Source of the DNA: an uncultured Porphyromonadaceae bacterium
GTDB lineage: Bacteria; Bacteroidota; Bacteroidia; Bacteroidales; Muribaculaceae
NCBI GenBank assembly: GCA_947573485.1
Contig: CANPGB010000002.1
Location: 62,001-126,000 of the forward strand
Length of the DNA stretch: 64,000 nucleotides
Reading direction: 5' to 3'
The notes under the pieces were generated by a model. That model was not told the origin of the DNA and ran no database searches. It was given only the letters and a program-made list of their open reading frames with translations. Position numbers and translations under genes: made by a program. Position 1 is the first letter of the stretch, and the number at the start of each line of letters is the position of its first letter. Below are positions 21,379-43,157 of the stretch, in pieces.

Positions 21379-21555
21379 GCAACACAAGGCCGCAAAAGAC
21401 TGCTTAAAGCAGCAATTTCAATGGCATTTTTTTGACTCCATAGAGCTGTATCGGGAGCTTAAAAAAGTGCTGAGGCTGTATATTAAACATCCTCAGCACT
21501 TTACAAAGATGAGCGGCAAACGAGGCTCGAACTCGCGACCCTCAGCTTGGGAAGC
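21379..21555. repeat. Left attachment-site repeat (attL), with 3' fragment of tRNA-Gly
   Basis: Direct repeat of 41896-42075. The last 95 bases (21461-21555) match 41981-42075 with one mismatch; further left the two copies are alignable but diverged. 21512-21555 is identical to the 3' 44 nt of the tRNA-Gly gene (discriminator to anticodon loop). Identity stops exactly after GGGAAGC, marking the crossover limit on this side. Confidence 0.85.
21461..21502 (-). terminator. Duplicated tRNA-Gly terminator in attL
   Basis: Perfect 12-bp stem AAAGTGCTGAGG / CCTCAGCACTTT with an A-run on the plus strand, i.e. a T-run after the stem on the minus strand. It is the displaced original of 41981-42022. 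Confidence 0.75.
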
Positions 21556-25185: not shown

Positions 25186-28100
25186 GCCTCAGCCTCCGCA
25201 GCCTGCCAGCCCGTGAGCTTCGTCAATCCGCAAAGACCGGCAAAGTCGCGGTCCGTACGCTCATTGTTTTTGGCCGCCTCCTGGCGCATATAGGCATTAC
25301 GCTCAAGGCCATGTTTAGCCAACATATAATCCGTCAGCTCCATGCGCTCTACCGCTCCAGGGGCAAGACGTGCCACCGCATCGAGCAACGGCTGTATCAC
25401 AAGACGCTCGTAAGCGTCCTGCTCCGAAAGATTCAAGCTGCTCAGGCTGTTCTCCGACGTATATGCGTTCTCAAACGACGGTATATCCTCAACTCTGCGG
25501 CGCTCGCCACTTCCGGCCTCGACAGCCTCGTAGAAGCGCTTAAGCCCGAGCATGCTGTCGGCATATGCCTCGGTAAGCTTATAGCCAACCTTAGAAACAC
25601 TTTCCTCGTACAGCGACTTCGCTACAACGCGCTCACGCTCTACATAGTCGGAAGCCTGACGGAAGCGCAAATCACTTTCCCTCGTTTCAGTTGCCGGATT
25701 TTCAAAGTTTTTGATTAACTTTGCACCATCATCAAGCTCTTGAACGGTGTACTTGTGAGCATGGGGCTCACGCCGGGTAAGCCATTCAAGGGCTTTTTCT
25801 CCGCTGTGATTCTCTCTTGCCAAGCCCGTCTTATCTTTGTACGCGCCCGTGTCAAGCATTTCAGACAGACCCTCTGCAATTTTGCTAAGAGTCCCCGCAG
25901 GAGCTTTACGCAATTCCTCTTTGAAATACACAAACTCAGAGACCTCCTTACCCGGTTCTCCTACAAAAGTGTTAGGTGTACGCTTTGGCTTGATTACTAT
26001 GCTGACAACAGGTTCGCTGGCATTAGCATTTTCTGAATTGACATTGTGAGTGCTTATACGCACCTTTACTATACTGCCGTTCTCAAGCTCAAATGTGCGA
26101 TAGCCACTACCACTCTTGCCTACTATTGCGCCAAGGCTATGGCCTAAATCGGTTAAAAAGCCTTTAGGATTGGTTACTGTGCGGTATATCTCTGCAAGTC
26201 GCTTTAACTTGCTTTTGGCAGTTTCAATTCTTTTCGCTACCTTTGCGCCGTGTTCAGCATCAGCAGGATCCAAGTCGTTAAGTCGAGCCTCGTTGGTGCC
26301 GGACATTTTTTTATGCCCAGACGCATCTTGCCGCATTGCGACATCGGTCCCGACCTTAAGCTCCGCGCGTTTGGCGGCATCGCGAGCCATACCTACATAA
26401 TCGCTCTTTGCTGTCAGACGCTCATGGCTGCGCCACAACATGTAGCGCAGTTCGTTATCACCGAGTGTCACCCACTTAGGCAGCTTCAGCGAGCCCAGGA
26501 ACTTGTTTATGGCATCAAGGACTTTCGCTTTAAGCTTCACCCATATGCCACGCTCAGCCTTGGTAAAATCCTCAAAGCCTTTCTCACTCAGACGACCAAA
26601 CATTTCATCAACGGCCACGCGGCGGTGGTATGCATAACCCTTGGAGGGGTCGCTGATAAACCTGCGGGTAGCTTCTTCATCTACACGTTGTTTCAACTCA
26701 TCTTTGAGGTGAGTGTAGACTTCATCGCAGAAGGCATCGTAGTTCTCTTCACCGACCAGTTCTCGCAGCCCTTTATGAGCTACAACCTCATGGAACACGG
26801 TCTCTGCAACATCTTCAACGGTCGCATTGTTAGGAAGTACAATCACGACTTCGCCCGTACCTGTATCATACCAGCCCTTGGCGCCGCGCATCTTACGCTC
26901 AACGCCCTTGTCTCGGTTGCTTATCTCGTTCTCATCGGTAATGAAGCGCACAGGCGTATGGAGTCGTGAGGCAAGCTCAGCACCCATTTGTTCAAGCTCC
27001 GACGCTTTAGCGTCGCCATGGCCGTCACTACTTTTTGCGCTCTCCTCGAGTATTTTTTCGCCTGTTTTCTTGTGTATCTCAGCACCTTGAAGTAACTTTG
27101 CAATCCCTAACATCGATTGCTCGTTGTTAGTGGTAGCATTAGGAGTGCTTGGCGTCTTGGCGTCGAGCACTTCAATTTTTGTCACCTCATATGTGTGCGC
27201 AAGTGGCATTTTTTCATTTGAATACTCTTTAAGAGTGGTAACAACCCTGTAAACAATCCCTTCAACATTTACAGCACCAACAAACCGATGCATTAATGAA
27301 TCAGGATTATAGCCGTTTTCCTCGCTTCTGTTGCCGTCTCTCTTCCATACGTCTGCATGCTCCATAATCTCGATACTCTCTCCGATAACATCCGAGAGCC
27401 TATCCATTACGGCTGCATGAACCCCTATACTCGAACTTTTGCCTGAATGATTTGCGGCATACTTCAATGCCCGCGGTTTTATCACATATTGAAATTGCGC
27501 ACCATAATTGTCGTATGTCAGCACCTGCCCTGCGTACCTTTTCGATGCCGCGTCTACCGCTTGGCTAAGGATGTCATGACCATGATACCCATGCCTCGGT
27601 ACATCTACAACCTTAACAGCAGCCTCTTTGAGTCCTGGCATGACGGTGCCTCGGTTAGCCACAGCAGCACGCTGGCGCTCTGCAAAGCTCCGGCCGCTTT
27701 CGCCCATACGGAACCGCACATCTCCCCCGCCATACTCACTGCCGGGCTCGCGAAGCTCTCTGTTGTCAGCGGCACTGCGGGTATAGTTGCCCTCCACCTT
27801 GATTACATCGTTGAGATTGACACTTCCGAGTTTTTCAAGCCACTCTTTAAGCGCCATGTAATCTTCACTCGCGCTGTCGGTGGTTGCAAAGTCTCCGTAC
27901 ACTATCGCCGAAGCGCCACCGAAGCGTATCACCTTCTCGGATATATAGCGAGCTTTCTCTTCTATGTCGGTCGAGATTTCGCTGAACGGCGTATGTATGT
28001 TGCCTACAATACGCCCACCCTGCGACACAATAAGCACCGAAACCTTGGCGCGGTCACCCATGCGATGCGAGTTAAGGAACGCAGCAACATCTGCCGAACA

Positions 28101-29057
28101 CCGCACACGCGGCTGCGACATCGGGTCGTAGTCTCGGGCGAATATCTGCTTGTCGAGAGTGTGTACTGTAAGCGGCGCACTCCGCTCAGGCGTGCGCTTC
28201 ACACCTTCGCCCAAGCTTCTCTTATTCCCGAAAGTACCGTATTTACCGCTTTTCAGATTGATGATAACTCCATGCACAGGTACTTTCGATACTGCCTCGA
28301 ACATCTGCAGGCACCGAATATCCTGCGGCGAGCACTCAAGATTGCCGCTCGGGTGGTTATGCACAAAGTAGATCTCGTCGGGATGCAGACGGCTGTATGC
28401 AAGCGACACCGTAGCCATATCAACCATGGTGCTGTTAAACGTACCCATACCGAGCTCAACTACCGTAGGCTTGCCCTCCTTGACAAACACCGCAAACGAG
28501 TGCTCCTTGCCAGCATCCTCAAGGGCCGAGAAGATATAGGCCACATCGGCGGCGCTCTCTATGCGTTCGCCGCTCATAAAGCCATATTGCCCGTTCTCTA
28601 TAAAGATACGTTCAACCAATGCAAACTCACCGGCAGCCTTGTCGAGCCCGGCACCGACCTCCTTTCGCGTAGGATTATCCTCCAACAGAGCCTCTGACCC
28701 TCGGGCACTGCTGTAGCGCACGTTCTTTCCCTCGCTTGTAGTATAGCTGCCCGTGAAGTCGAGCGACAGCTGGCGATTGTCAGCACGCTCTCCACGCTTT
28801 CGGTAGCCGCTGCGGGGTTCGTTGAGAGCCACCGTGCCATTGTCTCCGGCAGTTTCCTCGATAGCTTCAAAGAGTGCTTTCAGGGGAGCGTCAAACGCCT
28901 GCTGCAACTCCTCGTCGGTCGGATACACAAAACCGTCAAGAGCCTGCGGGGTGTTTCTGAACTCCTCGTAGCTCATAAGCTCTACGGGAGCTATCTGCTC
29001 GCCCTTGGCAAGTTCCTTATTGTGTTTAGCTATACGTTGCTTAATTCTGTAAGCCAT
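25113..29057 (-). CDS. Polyvalent phage protein: JAB/RadC-like, zinc protease and nuclease-like modules
   Basis: 1314 residues. Modules in order: Arg/Glu-rich N-terminus; a RadC/JAB-type metallopeptidase-fold domain with FVHNHPSGN near residue 231; a barnase/EndoU/RelE-like nuclease module (~480-650, contains KYAANHSGKSSSIGVHAAV); a zincin protease with HEVVAH near residue 756; a second nuclease-like module (~950-1105, GKSGSGYRTFELENGSIV to LEWLTRREPHAHKYTV); and a helical tail. Such polyvalent proteins are thought to be ejected with phage DNA and act on host targets. The start overlaps the end of the giant gene upstream by 28 bases. The last ~24 residues are read antisense to the early gene, suggesting loss of the natural C-terminus. 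It contains antisense promoter matches at 26214 and 27069. Confidence 0.75.
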   Translation of the reverse strand: MAYRIKQRIAKHNKELAKGEQIAPVELMSYEEFRNTPQALDGFVYPTDEELQQAFDAPLKALFEAIEETAGDNGTVALNEPRSGYRKRGERADNRQLSLDFTGSYTTSEGKNVRYSSARGSEALLEDNPTRKEVGAGLDKAAGEFALVERIFIENGQYGFMSGERIESAADVAYIFSALEDAGKEHSFAVFVKEGKPTVVELGMGTFNSTMVDMATVSLAYSRLHPDEIYFVHNHPSGNLECSPQDIRCLQMFEAVSKVPVHGVIINLKSGKYGTFGNKRSLGEGVKRTPERSAPLTVHTLDKQIFARDYDPMSQPRVRCSADVAAFLNSHRMGDRAKVSVLIVSQGGRIVGNIHTPFSEISTDIEEKARYISEKVIRFGGASAIVYGDFATTDSASEDYMALKEWLEKLGSVNLNDVIKVEGNYTRSAADNRELREPGSEYGGGDVRFRMGESGRSFAERQRAAVANRGTVMPGLKEAAVKVVDVPRHGYHGHDILSQAVDAASKRYAGQVLTYDNYGAQFQYVIKPRALKYAANHSGKSSSIGVHAAVMDRLSDVIGESIEIMEHADVWKRDGNRSEENGYNPDSLMHRFVGAVNVEGIVYRVVTTLKEYSNEKMPLAHTYEVTKIEVLDAKTPSTPNATTNNEQSMLGIAKLLQGAEIHKKTGEKILEESAKSSDGHGDAKASELEQMGAELASRLHTPVRFITDENEISNRDKGVERKMRGAKGWYDTGTGEVVIVLPNNATVEDVAETVFHEVVAHKGLRELVGEENYDAFCDEVYTHLKDELKQRVDEEATRRFISDPSKGYAYHRRVAVDEMFGRLSEKGFEDFTKAERGIWVKLKAKVLDAINKFLGSLKLPKWVTLGDNELRYMLWRSHERLTAKSDYVGMARDAAKRAELKVGTDVAMRQDASGHKKMSGTNEARLNDLDPADAEHGAKVAKRIETAKSKLKRLAEIYRTVTNPKGFLTDLGHSLGAIVGKSGSGYRTFELENGSIVKVRISTHNVNSENANASEPVVSIVIKPKRTPNTFVGEPGKEVSEFVYFKEELRKAPAGTLSKIAEGLSEMLDTGAYKDKTGLARENHSGEKALEWLTRREPHAHKYTVQELDDGAKLIKNFENPATETRESDLRFRQASDYVERERVVAKSLYEESVSKVGYKLTEAYADSMLGLKRFYEAVEAGSGERRRVEDIPSFENAYTSENSLSSLNLSEQDAYERLVIQPLLDAVARLAPGAVERMELTDYMLAKHGLERNAYMRQEAAKNNERTDRDFAGLCGLTKLTGWQAAEAEAQRMVDEYERVTVWIPVAVDVVKM
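25716..25723 (+). promoter_or_regulatory. Antisense -7 box (weak) in polyvalent gene
   Basis: TAACTTTG at the C-terminal edge of the second nuclease-like module. No TTTG at 20 bases; nearest is GTTG at 22 bases. Listed only because it falls in the same position relative to a module as the six full matches. Confidence 0.25.
26214..26245 (+). promoter_or_regulatory. Antisense promoter match a
   Basis: TTTG (26214-26217), 20 bases, TACCTTTG (26238-26245), inside the 1314-residue polyvalent gene on the opposite strand, behind the zinc-protease module. Full consensus with exact spacing. Confidence 0.45.
27069..27100 (+). promoter_or_regulatory. Antisense promoter match b
   Basis: CTTG (27069-27072), 20 bases, TAACTTTG (27093-27100), directly behind the first nuclease-like module of the 1314-residue protein. 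Transcription would run antisense across that module. Confidence 0.45.
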
Positions 29058-32000
29058 TTATACAGCTCATAATTTTTCCTGCGGTAACCCTCAGCCACGC
29101 TTGCTGGCACGCCTGCAGAAAGGAAACTGTTCGTTCCACCCTCAGCGGCAAGCCTGCGGTCTACCCACTCGGCAAAGAGACGGGCACTCTCCTCGATTGG
29201 AGAGCCCCAGTACTCACCTCTTTGCTGGCAGCGGCGGTCATAGGCGCTGCCGTTGAGGGCTGTTGTCAGAGCCGTGAACGCCGACAGCACCTCAGAGCGC
29301 ACTTCCGCGTTGGCGCCTTGAGTCATCATGCCGGTCTTGATTCCACCTCGGCGGGCAAAATAGTTATCCAAAGCATGCCACCACTCGTGGGCAAGACTGC
29401 CCGCCCCACGTGTTTTGGTAAGGTTGATTACAACATTGTCACGCTCATAGTGCGCATTGGCATTACCACTGCCGCGCGCACCGAAAGCTATGCCAAGCTC
29501 GCCGTTCAAGCCTATAGCTTTAGGCGATATGCCGAGCACCCCTGCAAGGTCCATAAGCGCATCATACGCCTCGTTGACCGACTGCTGACGGTCGCGCTGG
29601 TTAGTCCAATTGCCAAATTGAACTCCTCGGAATCCGAATGTCTCGCCAAGCTCACCCTCGCTCACATTACGCCCGTTGCGGTAATCTTTGCCACGGCGAG
29701 GAACCGCCGGTCGAAAATACACATAGTTCCTCATCCGCTCTTTACGCGAGGCTTCCCACTTGTCAAGATTCTCACGGTTACGCTCAACCCACTGCCGTGC
29801 TTCCTTATAGCTCGGTAAACCCTTAACAAACACGACCATGTTGCCAAGAGCACTGCTCTGCCGTTTGCTCAGCGGTGCCCACACGAAATATGTGCCGTTC
29901 TTGTCACGGTTTATCTCAACCTGAAAATGAACCGGGGCTGCCTCCCCCTCCTTATGGACGGTCTGCGCCACCACAGCTGCGTTAGCCTTCTCCTGCAGGC
30001 TCTCGATATTATCCTCAATCCAGGCGCGGCACTCCGCAACCGTTTCGAATACCGGCACATCTTGCAGAGCAATCTTTTCGCCGCTTACTATATTGCGTAT
30101 AGTCGCGTTGTAAGTATGTTCATTTTCCTTTTCTTCGTATATGCTGTACTCTGCCCGCTTGCTTCGGGCGCTGCGTTCCTTGACAAGAGCCTCTGCTTCT
30201 TCCTTGCTCATGCCACTGCCTACGGTCTCCATATCTCTGCCGCCGAACTTCACCACACTCCATTTGCCGGTTGCTCGGCGGGTGGTACTTGCAACAGTCA
30301 CGGCGAAATCGTCAGGTGCATACATCACATCGCTGTCGCCACGGCTCACCTTTGCTATCTTGGTGCATACCTCCAAGGCTTTATCATATGTTGCGTGCCG
30401 CCCGAAATACTTACCGTCGAGCCGCACCTCATAGCATGTGCCGAAAGTATCAGTACTTATAGTTGCAAATTTTGCCTTGTCTGCATCGTTTGCAGGGTAG
30501 CCCAGCCCCTCGAGCACTGCTTTAATTACGTCAATCTCAGCAGGCGCATAGAGGCCGCCGTCGATTCGTCCGGGGTTCAATTTCAGCGACGAAGCACGAC
30601 GCTCGGCCATAGCGCTCATATCCCGCATATCAAGAGCCGCCACAGCCGCAGCTCGCTCCTCTGCAGTGGTAGCCACACACACCGCCCGCAGCTTGTCGAT
30701 ATAAAATGCCACACGCTCAGCCCACGCCTTTATGGCTTCCTCGCCTCGGCGGCGGGCATAACTATTGCGGCTCAGTTCGCGTGGTTTCTTGTCGCGAAGT
30801 ATGAGCTGCGTAATGGCTTCGAGAATCAGCGCGTCATCGGCCGTAAGCTCGCCTTTCTCTACATATTTCTTCCAATCCGTAGCCTTGAAAACCTTGCTGA
30901 GCGGGTTGGTCAGTAAATCGGCGGCAGTAACATTGTCGAGCTTGCGGGCTATATCCTTCATGATGTTTTTGCGGGCGCCCCATATCTCTTCGCCCCAATC
31001 CTGTATGCTACCCGCAGCTGCCGATTCTTCAACAGCCTCGGCGGAGTCTTTGCTTTCCGAGTCGGCGTGCTCTTCGGTAGCAAGCTTCGCAGCAGTATTT
31101 TCAACTGCGCTACGGCTCTCGGCAAGAACCACATCGCGCCCGCGCCACCGCTGAAGCTCGCGCTCTATAAGGCGCAGTGCATCACCAGCCGACTCTTCCG
31201 CAGGCTCCTCGCCATACATCCTTACAGTCGCTTCCCACATGCTCTGCAACTCATTGATAGCACCAACGATTTCAGCCGGTCCCGGCTCGGTCGTCTCCAG
31301 ATCAAGAGCGAGTTCCTCAGTGCGCTTAACATACCCGGCAAGATCCTCGGCATCGCGCTTCGAGCGCCCAACCTCCGACGCACGGGCAGCCAACGCAACA
31401 TAATCTTCGCCGCCAACAAGCCCGAAAGGCTCATCGCCGCGCTCTTGACGCTTGCGCTCATCGCGCTCGCTTTTGAGCTTCCGTTCGGCCTCCTCGCGCT
31501 GCTTCTCGGCCTCAATCTCAGCACTGATACCCGCAGCCCTGGCAATTACATCGGTACTCTCCTTGTCAAAGTTGGCAATGTCTATCTTGCTCACGGCCTC
31601 ATAGCTATCCATTTCTCCCACGAATCCCGCGCTCTCTGCCTCTGGCATATCACGCACAGCATTGTAGAACGACTTTAGATAGGGGCGAATTGCATCGCCA
31701 AAATCCGCTATCATACCACGGGCAAACTCCGTAAACTTACGGGCACCCTTCTCAATATGATACACAGCCATTTCTGCGCCTATGGCAAGTATCTCAGGGT
31801 CGATACCCATATTAAGCTGACCGCCGAGCTTTCGTTTCATCCTCGCCTTCAGCTCCGCATACCGCTCTTCGCTAACCAGACGATTACCGGCGAGCTTGGC
31901 ACTTCCGTCGGCACCTCGCATGTCATCAAGCGACAGCGGCGCATCTGCTCCGTCGTAACCCGACGTATCTCCGCGGTTTTCGGCAGAACTTTCTTTGCTA

Positions 32001-35000
32001 CTGATTTGTTCTTCTGCTGACAAAGTTGTACCTTTGTCGGCAGAAATGGCCGCACTTTGGTTTGAAGCGATGCCGTCAGTCCCGTCGCCTTGTGAGGACT
32101 GGTCGGAAGTAACATTTGCAGTAGCGACACCTGTAGCAGAAGATTCTTCCTCGCCCTTCTCCCAAAGAGTGGTCAATTCTTGTATATTGGAAATATGGTC
32201 GTAGCCAAATGTCTTTATTCCGAGCCATTCACCTTTGTCATATTCAAGCACAAAGGTTATCGCTCTGCGTGCTGATTTAGTTCTATTACCCTCTATCGAA
32301 AATACGAATGTGTTACCACGACCTCTGCGGACGTGGTCAAAATTACGCATTACATTGAGTATGGCTTCAACCGCCTCTTCGGGAGTTTTAAGCTTAAGTT
32401 CTTTTCTATGACGCTCGAAAACGTGCGCCACCATAGAGGGCGTAAGACGGAAAGGAGCTTTTTGTATGCCCATTTTGTCAAACACTTCTTTAGCAATATC
32501 AACTAAATCAATATTGCCGTTTGCATCTTCAAGGAAAGGCTCCCCATTAGCAGCCCTTTCGCTGCTCCATTTAAGCGATTGAGGCATTTTCGCCTCATCG
32601 TCTTTTATTGTGGCTTCTTGATTTTCTACAGCTGCCCGTTCCGCCGAGCCCGAATCTCCGCCAACTCCTTGAGGAGCTCCTTCTCCCTGGCTTCGTCCTG
32701 CCGCTGCTGCGCTTCCCGCTCCGTCGTAACCCGACGTATCTCCGCGGTTTTCGGCAGAACTTTCCTCTCCCGAAATTTGTTCATATGTCAAAGATTTGGT
32801 AACTTTGCGGTCAGAAGTCTGTGAAGAATTTCCTGCTGGCGCGGTTGCACCCTCTGTTTGGCCGCTATTAACTTCGGAGGTATCGGTGTTAGTACCTTCT
32901 CCAACTGCGGGTACGGAATAGACTTTTGGCTTACGGCGCGAGTATTTCTTTTTGAAAATGCCCGCGCTGTTTACATTCCAATACGTTCCGTCCTTTGACA
33001 GTTGTATAAAGAGGGTGTTGTTATGGTCATCTGACACTTCGAGCAGGTACGTTTGGTTTTCCCCAATCAACGCACCCTCACGGATGTCTGTATAGTTTTT
33101 GGCTACCTCCTCTACAAATTCCTCTACAGATGCGTATCCTGCATTTCTTATTTGGTCGCCATGACCGGCTTCGATATGAAGTAAGCCATAACCGTGATTT
33201 TTACCCTCATCGTCTGTGGTGTTCTCACCAAGACTAAGACGAATAGGAGCCTCAGTTAATCCGGTTTCAGCATCAATAATGCCGAAAGTAGTAGTACCGT
33301 CTTTAGCAAGTACCAACGGTTTTCCATACTCGTCTTTTTCTTCTTCAGACAGATTGGCATTTATTTCCTCGGCCTCAGCGCGCTCACGAGCTTCACGCTC
33401 GGCACGCCTTTGCGCCTGGTCTGCCTCAAACTCGGCGTCAAACGCTGCACGCCTCTCTGCCTCAGCCGCCGCTGCCACAATAGCCTGCCAGCCCTCATAG
33501 TCAGCACGGGCATTGGCAAGAGCGTCTTCATTAGAATTGCGCGAGGCAAGCACCTCCTGCGGAGTCTTACCCCTCGCTTTAAGCTTCTGTGCTTTCTCAA
33601 AAGCCTTACGCTTCTCCTTAACCATAACACCGGCAACGTCCTTAGCCGCCGACACGTCGCCATGACAGAACTCCACAAGAGCCACCCAACCCGCCTCAGC
33701 ACTCGGGGCACGCTCAAACAGAGGATTCCCAGCCTCATCACGAGGCACAGCGGCAAGAGCAGTGTCGGCAGAACTTTCAGCTCCCGACGCTTGTTTTTCT
33801 GACGGCAATGCATTAACTTTGCCGGTGGAAACGGCTGACTCACCGTTAGGTTCAGTAGATGAAGTGCCAACTTGCTCACCTGCTGAAAGCGAAGAGTCAC
33901 TTGAAACGGCACTGTTCGGTTGTTGAGGTTCGGTCTTAACAACCGTTTCCTTTCCGACAGAGTCCGGCTTATAATCCGTGACAATACCGTCGAGCTCCTG
34001 CTCGGTTGCATAGTGCATATTCTGCAGGTCTCCCTCTACAAAATACTCATGCCGTCCCTGCTCATCAACTATGCCGGTGAGCACACCGCGAGACTCCGAA
34101 CCGTCGGCATTGCGTATAGTAATCTGCCCCGCACCATATCTCGCCGTCGCACTTTCCGCTCCCGACACTTGTTTTTCCGAAGGCAATGCATTAACTTTGC
34201 CGTCGGAAGAAATTTTGTCGGACGAAGGAACAAGGTCCGGTCCCTCCGCTTTCTGCGGAGCCTCGGTTAAGGACCTCTCAGAACCGGGGGACAGTTTCTC
34301 TGTTCCCTGCGCATTTCCCGGGGAGGCTGTCACAGAAACATCGGCAGGGCGTTGTTCGGTCTGTGCGCCACCGTCAAATCGGTATAACAGCTTCCCCTTT
34401 TTTAACGCCTCCTTTATTCGTTTAGGTCGGTCGTAATGGCTGCTGACGCTGACCTCCATACCGTCTTTCTTTACAGTAACGGATTTGAAATAATACACCT
34501 TTTCACCGTTCTTACCGATAAACGTCTTTACAAAGAGCAACGTCGTTGCTCTTTCTGTATTGCCGTCAGCAGCCTCTGACGGTACCTCGATAATGGCAAG
34601 AGGAGATTCAAGGGTCGGGCGTATCATGCCAAATTGCTCACTACGCCCCTTTTCAAAGAGCTTGGCAATTTGATTGGCACCCATTTTAACACTCCCTATA
34701 GGAGTTGTTACTTTACCGTCCTCGCCGAATTGCGCTATCCAATTCTCAGGCGTAAGCTCAATATGCTGCGCAGGTTCAGCCCGAGCCTCCATGCGAGACA
34801 ACAGCTCATCGGCTTCCGCCTCATCAATTTGTCTCCCGACAGGAGCTTCAGCTCCGACTCCTGCAGCAGCGGTCTCACCCGCCACCTCAAGCTCCGACAG
34901 AGGCAGAGGACTTACACGCACACCGCCCTGGCCGTCGGCATGCTCAACCACATACAGAGGCTCAACACCCGAGCGGTCGATGTCGACAACAACACCCCCG

Positions 35001-37929: not shown

Positions 37930-39114
37930 TTAATTTATAGGATAAGGTCTTCTTTTATCGTCTACCCCATTCATCGGGTCGTTCTTTCTTTCCTTCTTCT
38001 TTTTATTCTCCAGATATTCAGCAATCAGCTCCTCATCTGTCTTCTGCTTCAAGCCGGGAATAAAAACACTCGGGCGTTGTATCGCATATGTAGTTTTCAA
38101 GTTGGGAACCCCAAACTCACTTTCTATCGTCTGCTTCTCAATCACCGAGCTCCATACCCCCTCGATGCCTCGGAAATTCTCAGGGTCATCAGGCATGGGT
38201 TCCTGCTCCGAACGGTCGCTCCGTTCCCATTCATCATGCCTGCGTCTATATTCATTCATCGAACGGATATAAACTTCCCTGCGCTGTGCCTCCTGCAAGT
38301 TCGGAGCCTGCTGGTCTAAAACATTGCCGTGTGTGTCATGAACATCGAACCCGCGCGTGTTCTGCCCCCGCACGGTCACGGCTCTATCCTTAGCACCCTC
38401 CGACTTACGCGTGGCGATGTCCTCCGCATGCCGGGCATTGCGCCCAGCCTCGCGCGCAGCCTCCTGCTGCCCCTTGGACGCAATCTCATAAAGCTTCAGA
38501 TCAGCGTCCGCCGCATCCTTCTTCTCCTTATACCTCTGCGCCGCCTCAGCCTGCCTCTTACCCTCTGCAAGAGCCGCCTGCGCCTGCTTGCGCTTGTCAA
38601 GACTCAGCGCATAATTATAGTACGCATCATCGGCCGCCTGCTTTCGCGCACGGGCACGCTCATAGCGCTCACGAGCCTTGCCCGCAAGCCCCTGCTCAGC
38701 GTTATACATATTCGGGGCATAGCGCGTCGTAAAATAAAGATTCGACACCGCGCGTGCCGCATCAGCAATCCCGCCGATGATACCCGCCGTTCGGGCACGC
38801 CTCGCCTCGCGGGCAGCCTCCTCAGCCTCCTCGGCAGCCGTGCGCATACGTCGTCGTGTCAGAGCCTCAATGTCTGCCAAGTTCTCAACCCGCCCCCACT
38901 CAGCCGAGTGCGACGCCGACGGCGACACAAGCCCGCGCGACACAACACCGGCAGCGCCCGCAGGATTTACAGGCGCCTGCGAGTTCACACCCACGCCCTC
39001 CACACCCGTGCTCTCATCAGCAGCAGGCGCCGGTGACGCAGGCTGCCCCGGCTCAGAATAAGGAGCATCCCCGCCCGACGGCCATGAACGTCTCTTCGTA
39101 TCTTCCCGCTCCAT
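37930..39114 (-). CDS. Putative internal virion (gp15-like) coiled-coil protein
   Basis: 394 residues, Ala/Arg/Glu-rich, with a Pro-rich N-terminus, long helices (RRRMRTAAEEAEEAAREARR) and a short hydrophobic patch. No catalytic motif is seen. It is the second gene of a block ordered small helical protein, medium coiled-coil protein, giant protein, the same order as internal virion genes 14-15-16 of T7-like phages. That assignment rests on order and character, not on detectable sequence similarity. Its ATG shares one base with the stop of the upstream gene (TAATG), a coupling signal. Confidence 0.55.
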   Translation of the reverse strand: MEREDTKRRSWPSGGDAPYSEPGQPASPAPAADESTGVEGVGVNSQAPVNPAGAAGVVSRGLVSPSASHSAEWGRVENLADIEALTRRRMRTAAEEAEEAAREARRARTAGIIGGIADAARAVSNLYFTTRYAPNMYNAEQGLAGKARERYERARARKQAADDAYYNYALSLDKRKQAQAALAEGKRQAEAAQRYKEKKDAADADLKLYEIASKGQQEAAREAGRNARHAEDIATRKSEGAKDRAVTVRGQNTRGFDVHDTHGNVLDQQAPNLQEAQRREVYIRSMNEYRRRHDEWERSDRSEQEPMPDDPENFRGIEGVWSSVIEKQTIESEFGVPNLKTTYAIQRPSVFIPGLKQKTDEELIAEYLENKKKKERKNDPMNGVDDKRRPYPIN

Positions 39115-39704
39115 TATCCAAGCATATCATTGTTCGACGCCCCCTTGTTTTCATTGCCCGAACCCGCGCTCGGATTGGCCGAACCCGCGCTCGCATCGCC
39201 CTTGAACCAGTCATCAACAGGCCCCGCAAGAGCAGCCGCAGCCTTAGCCACACCCTCCACGGCACCCGCAGTAGCCTGCGCACGCCCATACTCAATGCCA
39301 TTGAGCTCCTTGCGAAGCTGCGACTCGCGCTCACGATACTGCTCTTCAATACCGTCCCGACGTCGCTCTCCCGCAGCCGTAATCTGTGAGGCCGCCTCCG
39401 CAAGAGCACCGCTGCCGGAAGCCTTGGTAGCCGCGACACTCTCATCGGTACCACCCATTACAGCCTGAGTGCCCGCCGCCGCACGATTGCGGTCCCGCAG
39501 AGCCTCACGGGTAAGAGTCAGCACACGTTGAGCAGTAGCCGTCCGCGCAGCATCAACATTATAATTACGGTCGTACCACGACTGATTCGCCTCGCGCTCA
39601 CGCTCAGTGGCACGCTTGGCACTTCGAGCCGCAGCAGAAGCCTTTATACCCCCGAAAATTGCGCTGCCAATACTCAGGGCTGCGCCCGCCAGAGTCCCTA
39701 ACAT
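39114..39704 (-). CDS. Putative internal virion (gp14-like) protein
   Basis: 196 residues from the ATG at 39704; the longer in-frame start at 39764 would include the probable promoter. The N-terminus is hydrophobic and Gly/Ala-rich (MLGTLAGAALSIGSAIFGG), as in phage pilot or ejection proteins, followed by a long Ala/Arg/Glu helix and a Gly/Ser/Asn tail. It is similar in size and layout to internal virion protein B of T7-like podoviruses. First gene of the late block. A TATCTTTG -7-like box lies upstream on the minus strand (39758-39751). Confidence 0.55.
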   Translation of the reverse strand: MLGTLAGAALSIGSAIFGGIKASAAARSAKRATEREREANQSWYDRNYNVDAARTATAQRVLTLTREALRDRNRAAAGTQAVMGGTDESVAATKASGSGALAEAASQITAAGERRRDGIEEQYRERESQLRKELNGIEYGRAQATAGAVEGVAKAAAALAGPVDDWFKGDASAGSANPSAGSGNENKGASNNDMLG

Positions 39705-39801
39705 ACTTAGATAACCATTAAAAAGTAAAACATAACTTAAAAACTCCCCGCAAAGATAACACACTAACTTTGTACCGTAATTTTAACTTGTGTATTACCC
39801 C

Positions 39802-40636: not shown

Positions 40637-41851
40637 TTATTCTTTTCCGTAGAGCACCCAATTACGCACACGCCGGTTAGCCTCATCCACCTTGCGCAAA
40701 TTGCGCCGGATATATATTTCCGTCGTCGAGTTCTCCGCCGCATGCCCCAGCGCCTGCGAAATCACAGCATCCGGCACATCAAGCTCGGCAGCTATGGTAG
40801 CCCATGTGTGCCGTGCCCAGTAAGAAGTCAAGCCGGGGAAAGCAGGCTCAATCACCTTGCGCCCCCCACGACCCACCCGCTCCACGGCACCGACGCGTTG
40901 CAAAGCAGTATTCATGTGCTTGACGAAATTCCGATAGTCAGCCTGACACTCCATGACATCGAGCAAAAACTTCCGACCGCCCTAACGGTCAAAAATCTCC
41001 ATAGCCTCAGGCTCAACCTTGAGCGAATAAAAACGCCCTGTCTTAGCCCGGTAATACTCCACCCTGCCGTCCACCACACGTTGAAGCCCGAACAAATCCA
41101 CAGCATTGATGCCGCACAACATGAACATCAGCTTGAAAATATCCACATACTTCACCGCATAATCCTCCACCGGGTAGTCGAACAACATGCGCAGTTGCTC
41201 AACAGAAAGCGAACGCTTCGGCGTAGCCACAGCCCGAATCTTGAACCGCCTGAACGGATAGAACGACGTAAGCTCGGCGGCCACCGCATCATTGAACACA
41301 GCCCGGATATTGCGCAAGTGGATATTACGGGCATTGCGGCTCGGTGCCGTCATTGCCATGAAAGCGTCGAAACGCGTCAGCCACTCCACCGTCAAATCCT
41401 CAAAATGCAGCGACTCAACCCCGGGGCAGAAAGCCCTCATCCTGGAGAGCGTCTGCATATAGAGCTGCTTCGTTCCCACCTTCTTCAACGCGGCAAACGC
41501 ATTAAGCCGCTCCACGAAAGTCGCCTTTCTCGGTGCCTCCCCCGGCACGGCATACCTCACGGCGTTGAAAACATCTTCAAACGAAGCACCGGCCGCCCCC
41601 TTGTCAGCGATAACATCAAGCAGAGCCTCATCAGCATCAAGACGGTAGCGACAAAGAAGGCGGTTCACCTTAGCGCTCAGAGGCGCCTTGGGCTGAACAC
41701 ATCCGCGAGCCTCGTCCCAGTGCTCAAGGCGCACCGAAACACCGAGGCTCAGATAGCGCCTTTTTCCCTTATGTGTTACAGAAAATTTCAGAGGACACGT
41801 CCCGTCACTCTTGGGACTGCGCGAATCAAGATAAAAATTGATTGTTGCCAT
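40637..41851 (-). pseudogene. Tyrosine integrase interrupted by an in-frame amber codon
   Basis: About 404 codons from the ATG at 41851 (MATINFYLDSRSPKSDG, the usual Bacteroidetes phage integrase opening). It has an arm-binding/core-binding region and a catalytic domain with ARHTWATIA near residue 350, LGHAAENSTTEIYI and the Tyr at its end; the first catalytic Arg is not obvious. A TAG at 40984-40982 lies exactly where relatives have an aromatic residue (IFDR*GGRKFLLDV), with no frame change on either side. It splits the protein into ~289 and ~114 residues, so the enzyme is probably dead unless the amber is suppressed. It sits beside attR and would have driven integration into tRNA-Gly. Confidence 0.8.
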
Positions 41852-41895
41852 AGTCAAAAGGTCGCCAGATTTGCACAATTTTAAGCACACTTTTT

Positions 41896-42075
41896 GCAAC
41901 ACAAGGCCGCAAATGGCTACTTAAAGCAGCAATTTCAATGGCTTTTTTTTGACTTTACAATGCTATTTCAAGAGCTTTTTAAAAAAGTGCTGAGGCTGTA
42001 TATTAAACATCCTCAACACTTTACAAAGATGAGCGGCAAACGAGGCTCGAACTCGCGACCCTCAGCTTGGGAAGC
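41896..42075. repeat. Right attachment-site repeat (attR) overlapping tRNA-Gly
   Basis: Direct repeat of 21379-21555. It includes the terminator and the 3' 44 nt of the tRNA. It carries the element-borne copy that restores the tRNA 3' half after integration. Confidence 0.85.
41981..42022 (-). terminator. tRNA-Gly terminator
   Basis: Stem AAAGTGCTGAGG / CCTCAACACTTT (one mismatch, whereas the attL copy pairs perfectly), followed on the minus strand by six T. Ten bases beyond the tRNA 3' end. Confidence 0.75.
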
Positions 42076-42104
42076 TGATGCTCTACCAACTGAGCTACTG
42101 CCGC
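42032..42104 (-). tRNA. tRNA-Gly (anticodon CCC)
   Basis: Complete cloverleaf on the minus strand: acceptor GCGGCAG/TTGCCGC, D-arm GCTCAGTTGGTAGAGC, anticodon stem TCAGC/GCTGA with loop TTCCCAA, T-arm GCGAGTTCGAGCCTCGT, discriminator T, no encoded CCA. It reads GGG codons. It is the integration target of the 20.5-kb element, and its 3' 44 nt recur at 21512-21555. Confidence 0.95.
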
Positions 42105-42227: not shown

Positions 42228-42259
42228 TTTGGCCACGCCACAATATTTTTGTAACTTTG
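42228..42259 (+). promoter_or_regulatory. rpoD promoter
   Basis: TTTG (42228-42231), 20 bases, TAACTTTG (42252-42259), 38 bases ahead of the rpoD ATG. Used here as the reference for the local promoter consensus. Confidence 0.8.
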
Positions 42260-42296: not shown

Positions 42297-43157
42297 ATGA
42301 GACAACTAAAAATCACCAAGTCGATTACAAACCGCGAAAGCGCGTCACTTGACAAATACCTCCAGGAGATTGGCCGTGAGGAACTTATATCCGTAGAGGA
42401 GGAGGTCGAGCTTGCTCAGCGCATCCGCCAGGGCGATCAGGTGGCTCTCGAGAAGCTCACCCGCGCCAACCTGCGTTTCGTGGTTTCGGTGGCCAAACAA
42501 TATCAGAATCAGGGTCTTTCGCTCCCCGACCTTATCAACGAGGGCAACCTTGGCCTTATCAAGGCTGCACGCAAGTTCGATGAGACCCGAGGCTTCAAGT
42601 TTATCTCATACGCCGTGTGGTGGATCCGCCAGTCGATTCTCCAGGCGCTTGCCGAGCAGAGCCGTATTGTACGCCTGCCCCTCAACCAGGTTGGTTCGCT
42701 CAACAAAATCGGCAAGGCTCTCTCTAAATTCGAACAGGAGAACGAGCGCCGTCCCTCTCCCGAGGAGCTCGCCGAGCAGCTCGATGTGCCTGTAGAGAAA
42801 ATCGCCGACACCCTCAAGGTTTCGGGTCGCCACATCTCGGTAGATGCTCCTTTTGTCGAGGGCGAGGATAACAGCCTGCTCGACGTGCTCACCAACGACG
42901 ACAGCCCCATGGCCGACGCCGCCCTCAACCAGGAGTCGCTCTCCAATGAGGTGGACCGCGCACTGCGCCAGCTCCACGAGCGTGAGCGTGAGATTCTGAA
43001 GATGTTCTTCGGCATCGGTTGCCAGGAGATGACTCTTGAGGAAATCGGAGCCAAATTCGACCTCACCCGCGAGCGTGTGCGCCAGATTAAAGAAAAAGCT
43101 ATCCGCCGCCTCAAAGGCCAGAAGAGCCGCCTGCTCAAATCGTACCTCGGTTCTTGA
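42297..43157 (+). CDS. rpoD: Primary RNA polymerase sigma factor RpoD
   Basis: 286 residues, the short Bacteroidetes form without region 1.1. Region 1.2 ([10 protein letters not shown]), region 2 with the -10 recognition helix ([29 protein letters not shown]), region 3 ([18 protein letters not shown]) and region 4 helix-turn-helix ([19 protein letters not shown]) are complete. It directs RNA polymerase to the TTTG/TAnnTTTG promoters seen throughout this window. Monocistronic, with a consensus promoter before it and a terminator after it. Confidence 0.97.

Follow-up and report, generated by a model that had tools for sequence, protein, structure and literature searches.

The toxins of type III toxin-antitoxin systems belong to the ToxN/CptN/TenpN and AbiF families. 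In the passages of PubMed Central article PMC12373285 that deal with AbiF-RCd22 and ToxIN, a small structured non-coding RNA with a promoter and a terminator stands beside the gene of a toxic protein, and the RNA of AbiF-RCd22, from a Clostridioides difficile prophage, binds its protein and acts in trans. As to the phage-borne toxin domains of MuF and polyvalent proteins, including PBECR, the sections of PMC11699363 and PMC5512222 on these proteins describe them as thought to be packaged in the virion, so that the producing cell needs protection; the view given of polyvalent PBECR proteins, whose genes lie among those of the virion, is that they are both packaged and injected (PMC5512222, in its part on these proteins), while MuF toxins are met by immunity proteins, as Bxa is with Bsi and BAH (PMC11699363, in the corresponding part). 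The window analysed here, i.e. the whole stretch of 64,000 nucleotides (nt) from an uncultured Porphyromonadaceae bacterium (assembly GCA_947573485.1, contig CANPGB010000002.1, positions 62,001 to 126,000), contains two giant minus-strand genes, P0001 and P0002, which are polyvalent in the sense of Iyer et al. (2017): large, multidomain, and combining LPD with effector domains. Opposite these genes lie six promoter-like sites, and we consider it rather probable that they are promoters of folded RNA genes acting as cassette-borne, type III-like antitoxins.

The likeness to type III systems consists in a structured RNA beside a toxin gene, which was found here as regards structure and placement only. 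The layout is not that of type III: the RNAs of this study face the opposite way, stand behind the nuclease and have their own promoter, whereas the type III RNA is upstream of the toxin gene, co-transcribed with it and separated from it by a terminator. Unlike type III RNAs, those described here often lie inside a giant coding region, several per gene, show no tandem repeat and have no match in Rfam 15, where a search with 12 loci and window positions 20000-44500 (24.5 kb) returned only tRNAs above the gathering score; the modules, unlike type III toxins, match PBECR families in Pfam, albeit weakly in the case of the modules M2 and M3. Compared with the protein immunity described for MuF toxins in the above part of PMC11699363, it is an RNA gene that occupies the place expected of an immunity gene (no systematic search for immunity proteins was made here). 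Finally, DonS-like RNAs of Bacteroides, members of the same phylum, are also cis-antisense, but in the portion of PMC7366714 devoted to them they lie opposite susC homologues; the RNAs described here are placed behind nuclease modules, and their folds covary. No description of this arrangement was recognised in the open-access PubMed Central papers searched. It may represent a kind of RNA-protein toxin-antitoxin system with a genetic layout unlike that of the described type III systems and a mode of action that we infer.

Promoter boxes opposite the giant genes

The pattern YTTG-N20-TAnnTTTG occurs on the plus strand at the six promoter positions of Table 1, all of them within the minus-strand open reading frames (ORFs) of P0001 and P0002, exactly as an earlier sequence-only reading of this DNA had reported, the spacing of 20 bases included. 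The sites agree with the sigma-ABfr consensus (TTTG about 20 nt before TAnnTTTG), taken from the part of PMC7366714 that gives it, and are predicted from their sequence to be promoters of this type. The expectation that chance would give far fewer matches was borne out: synonymous shuffling of the two genes left 0.11 matches on average and at most 2 in 3000 shuffles, and shuffling of codon order 0.04 with a maximum of 2, versus the six observed. The excess over shuffled sequences is clear, but since the four P0002 sites are copies of one degenerate linker repeat family, the six are not fully independent and the raw count overstates their independence; the two P0001 sites are read in a different frame from those of P0002. 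The whole window has 11 matches (dinucleotide-shuffle mean 0.17; at least 11 in 0 of 100 shuffles), the remaining five being at 314, 3418 (minus strand), 21076, 42228 and 43213, and the match at 42228 stands before an RpoD-like ORF (42297-43157). The genome itself contains 211 matches versus 8 for the reversed control pattern; in 15 of its stretches, taken around listed matches, 16 of 19 matches fall outside ORFs of at least 80 amino acids (aa), and those within ORFs are sense in two cases and antisense in one. These figures provide grounds to regard the pattern as a predicted, specific mark of host-type promoters.

P0002 has matches in 35 of the 247 family genomes and in 9 of 295 genomes of an order sample (the own genome being included in both). 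The sequence-only reading had proposed looking in related polyvalent genes for the same placement, and it is indeed there: 519 kb of giant-gene ORFs contain 45 antisense and 0 sense matches with the 20-base spacing, whereas synonymous shuffles of this set give 2.5 on average and at most 7 in 60. At the other spacings between 10 and 31, antisense counts ranged from 1 to 14 and sense counts from 0 to 4, with N20 as the peak. The set comprises ORFs of at least 1000 aa from 43 loci, the two of the window included; L044, L049, L054 and L061, with no ORF of 1000 aa, were left out, and the near-duplicates L032, L033, L035, L036, L037, L057 and L063 are counted here and excluded from the counts of module placement and of stems with U-tracts given below.

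Linkers were also searched for with a peptide profile alone, which gave 33 distinct first-class hits (the profile was derived from matching sites, and strongly divergent linkers could be missed). In these, all 33 lysines are encoded by AAA, 32 of the codons that follow have T as their last base, and 32 of the glutamines are CAA, at background frequencies of 0.42, about 0.35 (by our own weighting) and 0.37, respectively, so that the series AAA, GNT and CAA has hardly any exceptions; the residue following the lysine varies between D (13 linkers), V (11), G (8) and T (1). Codon bases that stay fixed while D, V and G vary are what TAnnTTTG with its free position predicts. The boxes are under constraint at the level of DNA, and not of the peptide, so the encoded linkers follow from the DNA pattern, which was one of the two possibilities raised earlier. 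Sites in the homologues occupy two reading frames, and in L090 near-identical box-and-spacer DNA is translated in two frames. The nine linkers of a second class (FENP) use GCA in seven cases and ACA in two, AAG in eight and AAT in one, and ATA in five, GTA in three and TTA in one. An inverted repeat around the -10 box, noticed in the linker consensus, was dropped, as it showed no covariation (observed 5.0, null 4.87).

Nuclease modules and predicted folded antisense RNAs

Pfam scans of the regions flanking the sites, in which one flank may match several families, gave PBECR2 10 times, PBECR3 5, PBECR1 4, InPase 4, LPD13 3 and MuF_C 2 among 41 flanks on the N-terminal side, and InPase 10, PBECR5 2 and PBECR2 1 among 40 on the other. 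When modules were found by profile and "behind" meant a span opening 25 aa ahead of the module end and closing 90 aa past it, a full antisense match stood behind 9 of 10 PBECR2 and 10 of 11 M2-like modules; for three other module types the counts were 0/17, 0/5 and 0/18, for an SH3-like stretch 1/2, and for random positions 3.6%. The M2 family itself, of 14 members, matches PBECR3 in six and PBECR1 in five at E values up to 0.1. A count of 17/19 for M3 as an independent family was dropped as circular, because the search seed had included the linker. Similarity to the nuclease modules was also used to fetch 33 loci from viral contigs. Behind the module, the antisense match is full in 27 of them and at least relaxed in 29, compared with none for a relaxed sense match and one for a match before the module. 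These 33 loci keep the duplicates L167/L168, L173/L174, L175/L176, L184/L185 and L189/L190, and L175, L176, L182 and L187 overlap in part places sampled earlier. The earlier statement that the sites mostly lie behind nuclease-like modules thus stands. Among 37 modules called by Pfam, the window's included, an antisense match was found behind 24 (11 of them full) and before 7, and a sense match in none; this count omits PBECR3 hits coinciding with PBECR2 hits (L125, L127, L129), and some of its rows overlap earlier loci. One of the 24, L140, is to be discounted as a tRNA promoter, by our reading of its sequence. Five solo PBECR3 genes (L122, L123, L124, L131 and L143, with frames of 146-175 aa) have the match just past the stop codon. 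P0002 and M3, used as single-sequence queries, found no relative in the viral-contig scans.

In L132, L133 and L139 a MuF_C module is followed by a short nested hairpin RNA. This RNA, seen also in L090, is of a distinct kind, with CAGCG...CGCTG arms plus a U-tract.

Downstream of the -10 boxes the antisense strand is predicted to fold over about 60-140 nt. Sites were scored for a closing stem next to a U-tract, and 33 of 40 reached the threshold of 16; so did 91 of 400 antisense positions drawn at random, and none of 39 on the other side. The score replaced a loose stem-and-U test that had proved too weak (40/40 versus 235/400 random). The RNA linked to PBECR2 has, in an alignment of ten sequences, 24 pairs, 17 of them with double-sided changes. 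A covariance model of this family, R1, matched 13 of 247 family genomes, the weakest match (G037) being a plain hairpin by our reading, and 12 of the 33 viral loci. Over 23 matches (22 distinct, training members included), double changes occur in 18 of the 24 pairs, with a covariation score of 0.479 versus 0.215 for shuffled and at most 0.151 for slid alignments; the alignment was fitted to the model, and a MAFFT alignment agrees with it. Two more families covary: A13, with 15 of 35 pairs in seven sequences, and A14, with 9 of 41 pairs in five sequences including the RNA of the window's 33790 site. The R1 RNAs, which the model finds without reference to any promoter, have a full promoter 3-39 nt upstream in 16 of 23 cases and a relaxed one in 17.

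The pairs of R1 drawn on the antisense strand include 31 G-U and 4 A-C. Since the choice of strand for the drawing itself biases the count towards G-U on that strand, folding was repeated on both: structures predicted on the mRNA strand have G-U versus A-C counts of 0 versus 6 in A3, 2 versus 12 in A12 and 3 versus 8 in A13, and the consensus energy is lower on the antisense strand in all five alignments. The antisense strand is, by this prediction, the one that folds.

The RNA families vary with the nuclease subfamily, and R1 carries near-invariant unpaired stretches. The RNA behind the solo PBECR3 gene of L143 belongs to one family with RNAs inside the polyvalent genes of L141, L043 and L046. 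Eight PBECR3 RNAs aligned with MAFFT gave a poor fold, and this alignment was replaced by a four-sequence model, R2, which matched part of the RNA of the solo gene in L122 (E 3e-4).

Two R1 copies stand apart. The one in L157 (1501-1603), whose promoter is not intact, is near a gene for an nSTAND3/AAA-like ATPase and may be part of a decayed prophage or else an orphan antidote. The copy in L160 (1501-1599) is weaker (E 4e-9), lies outside any recognised polyvalent gene and also has no intact promoter.

Candidate RNA antitoxins and competing explanations

The computations yield constrained promoter boxes, covarying antisense structure and a placement behind nuclease modules and some solo genes. 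In the reading that we favour, each site would drive a small non-coding RNA gene, situated antisense in a linker and typically directly behind a nuclease module. Host RNA polymerase with a sigma-ABfr-type factor would initiate a few bases past the -10 box; the transcript, of about 60-140 nt, would fold into a closed multi-stem RNA, and transcription would mostly end where the terminal stem meets its U-tract, level with the module's 3' end or slightly within it. Once folded, this RNA would bind its nuclease and so serve as an antitoxin, in the manner of type III systems such as AbiF-RCd22 (PMC12373285), and would keep the lysogen, and the cell producing phage, safe from a nuclease destined for the virion and the next host, the nuclease and its RNA moving as one cassette. 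Transcription, termination, nuclease activity, RNA-protein binding and protection are all predictions here, as is the antitoxin function of the RNAs. A nuclease carried by the virion endangers the producing cell, hence the need for protection; the giant frame would be interrupted if every module were followed by an immunity gene, while an RNA on the opposite strand fits, which in our view (as an argument and not a result) favours an RNA antitoxin. The sequence-only reading had each site transcribe antisense RNA across its module. Long transcripts of that kind are not supported: the RNAs predicted from the sequence are short and folded, and in most of them the stem with its U-tract coincides with the module's 3' end or lies slightly within it. 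Silencing of toxic modules in the lysogen may still hold in a modified form.

A more general proposal, to which we would give somewhat less than an even chance, is that of a new RNA-immunity class, in which nucleases delivered by Bacteroidales phages have a folded RNA antidote nested opposite and directly behind the module, polyvalent proteins being strings of such cassettes. If this is true, lysogens would be shielded by the RNAs against injected nucleases, both their own and related ones, bacteria could use orphan RNAs for immunity, and the survival of cells that produce phage-packaged RNases would be partly explained. There would also be RNA families beyond Rfam 15, coding linkers whose sequence is moulded by an RNA gene opposite them, and a sequence handle for uncharacterised phage nucleases and their antidotes.

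Several observations weigh against RNA antitoxins as the function of the sites. Within the window, M2 and M3 are just weakly PBECR-like, and a profile comparison of both with PBECR2 gave no match. The RNA behind M2 has a weak fold energy (single-sequence z -0.24), and the best stem of its site falls outside the RNA as delimited. The RNA of the 33790 site follows what we read as an SH3-like stretch and fails the stem-beside-U test with a score of 10.5; its homologues in L191 and L192 are directly behind an M2-like nuclease. As for P0001, the module before 27069 is LPD3-like only, its family having full matches behind in 1 of 8 cases (relaxed in 4 of 8) and a second P0001 module family in 0 of 5, while the candidate RNA at 26250-26308 follows no recognised nuclease and precedes another module. 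In the wider counts, 4 of the 33 viral loci and 13 of the 37 Pfam-called modules have no match behind the module. In the Bacteroides phages BKO1-TP3 and BS-TP4 the portal gene is immediately preceded by a giant gene with partial homology, and these giant genes contain no full match and, together, one relaxed antisense and one relaxed sense match. Of the 23 R1 RNAs, seven have no full promoter just upstream: L092 has a relaxed one, and L049, L053, L090, L050, L157 and L160 have neither, with a full one further upstream in L050; no recognised nuclease lies alongside the copies in L157 and L160. R2 had no match in 198 genomes. In the strand comparison, two alignments depart from the other three in that their mRNA-strand structures have more G-U than A-C (19 versus 10 in A14, 9 versus 5 in A15).

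The main rival explanation is pairing with the mRNA: cis-antisense RNAs would, as in type I systems, pair with the polyvalent mRNA, or the promoters would block sense transcription, keeping the nuclease off in the lysogen. We regard this as unlikely, though it accounts for the full cis complementarity to the linker mRNA and for the placement behind nuclease modules, and repressing cis-antisense RNAs are described for Bacteroides in the pertinent part of PMC7366714. An RNA that acts by pairing needs no covarying fold, yet the fold covaries; most of the predicted RNAs stop at the 3' end of the module and do not cross it; and the RNAs of solo genes lie mostly 3' of the stop codon, so that little coding sequence is covered. 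Even less probable, to our mind, is that the RNA, instead of inhibiting its nuclease, serves it as a cofactor or guide, is its substrate or is packaged with it in the virion. The near-invariant unpaired stretches of R1 and the correspondence of RNA families to nuclease subfamilies would suit such a role; against it, nothing in the sequences separates such a partner from an inhibitor, and some nuclease modules have no detected promoter behind them.

The two explanations that dispense with an RNA function fare worse still. Linkers are repeated within and between genes, as would be expected of recombination sites for module exchange with promoter likeness as a by-product, but the boxes and their spacing are kept across linkers that differ in sequence and frame (in lists selected by the boxes), the same layout follows solo genes, and the structure downstream covaries, which makes this very improbable. 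The strict conservation of the boxes likewise speaks against the earlier suggestion that they are relics of module capture. That the sites are a coincidence stemming from a recurrent KV-x-Q peptide in a conserved linker has hardly any probability at all, being contradicted by the alternation of D, V and G over fixed codon bases and by the loss of the sites in synonymous shuffles.

The integrated element

A near-perfect direct repeat (about 21461-21555 and 41981-42075), overlapping a tRNA-Gly gene (42031-42104), bounds an integrated element of 20.5 kb that contains both polyvalent genes, an integrase-like ORF (40982-41902) and a T7 gp14-like ORF (39114-39764). Being short for an intact tailed phage, the element is perhaps a satellite or a remnant. 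Its polyvalent genes, modules, promoter sites and predicted RNAs are listed in Table 1.

Table 1. Polyvalent genes, their modules, and the predicted promoters and RNAs on the opposite strand (window positions)
Feature	Position	Strand	Remarks
Polyvalent protein P0002, 2415 aa	29030..36277	-	PBECR2 and LPD5 over cut-off; LPD1 below cut-off
Polyvalent protein P0001, 1314 aa	25113..29057	-	RadC-like
Predicted promoter of antisense RNA 1, sigma-ABfr-type, CTTG-N20-TAACTTTG	34168..34199	+	ends 3 nt before covariance-model match
Predicted structured RNA, family R1, behind PBECR2	34203..34305	+	covariance model 94.7 bits (window copy in training set)
PBECR2 module of P0002, aa 513-633	34379..34741	-	Pfam PF18810, E 3.5e-7, over cut-off
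Predicted promoter of antisense RNA 2	33790..33821	+	pattern match
Predicted structured RNA 2	33826..33949	+	41 pairs, 9 double changes, 5 sequences
M2 module of P0002, aa 956-1120	32918..33412	-	weakly PBECR-like family
Predicted promoter of antisense RNA 3	32776..32807	+	pattern match
Predicted structured RNA 3 behind M2, overlapping M2 3' end	32812..32948	+	32 pairs, 8 double changes, 5 sequences
M3 module of P0002, aa 1220-1372, M2 homologue	32162..32620	-	PBECR3, E 0.0074, below cut-off
Predicted promoter of antisense RNA 4	32005..32036	+	pattern match
Predicted structured RNA 4 behind M3	32041..32182	+	13-bp closing stem, one mismatch; z -2.6
Predicted promoter of antisense RNA 5	27069..27100	+	other reading frame
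Predicted structured RNA 5, terminator-like hairpin and U-tract	27105..27182	+	z -5.5
P0001 module before RNA 5, aa 481-640	27138..27617	-	LPD3-like at E 0.034 only
Predicted promoter of antisense RNA 6	26214..26245	+	other reading frame
Predicted short structured RNA 6, stem-closed, then U run	26250..26308	+	z -3.3

Outside the element, the window also contains a gene for a GmrSD-like HNH endonuclease (696-1820).

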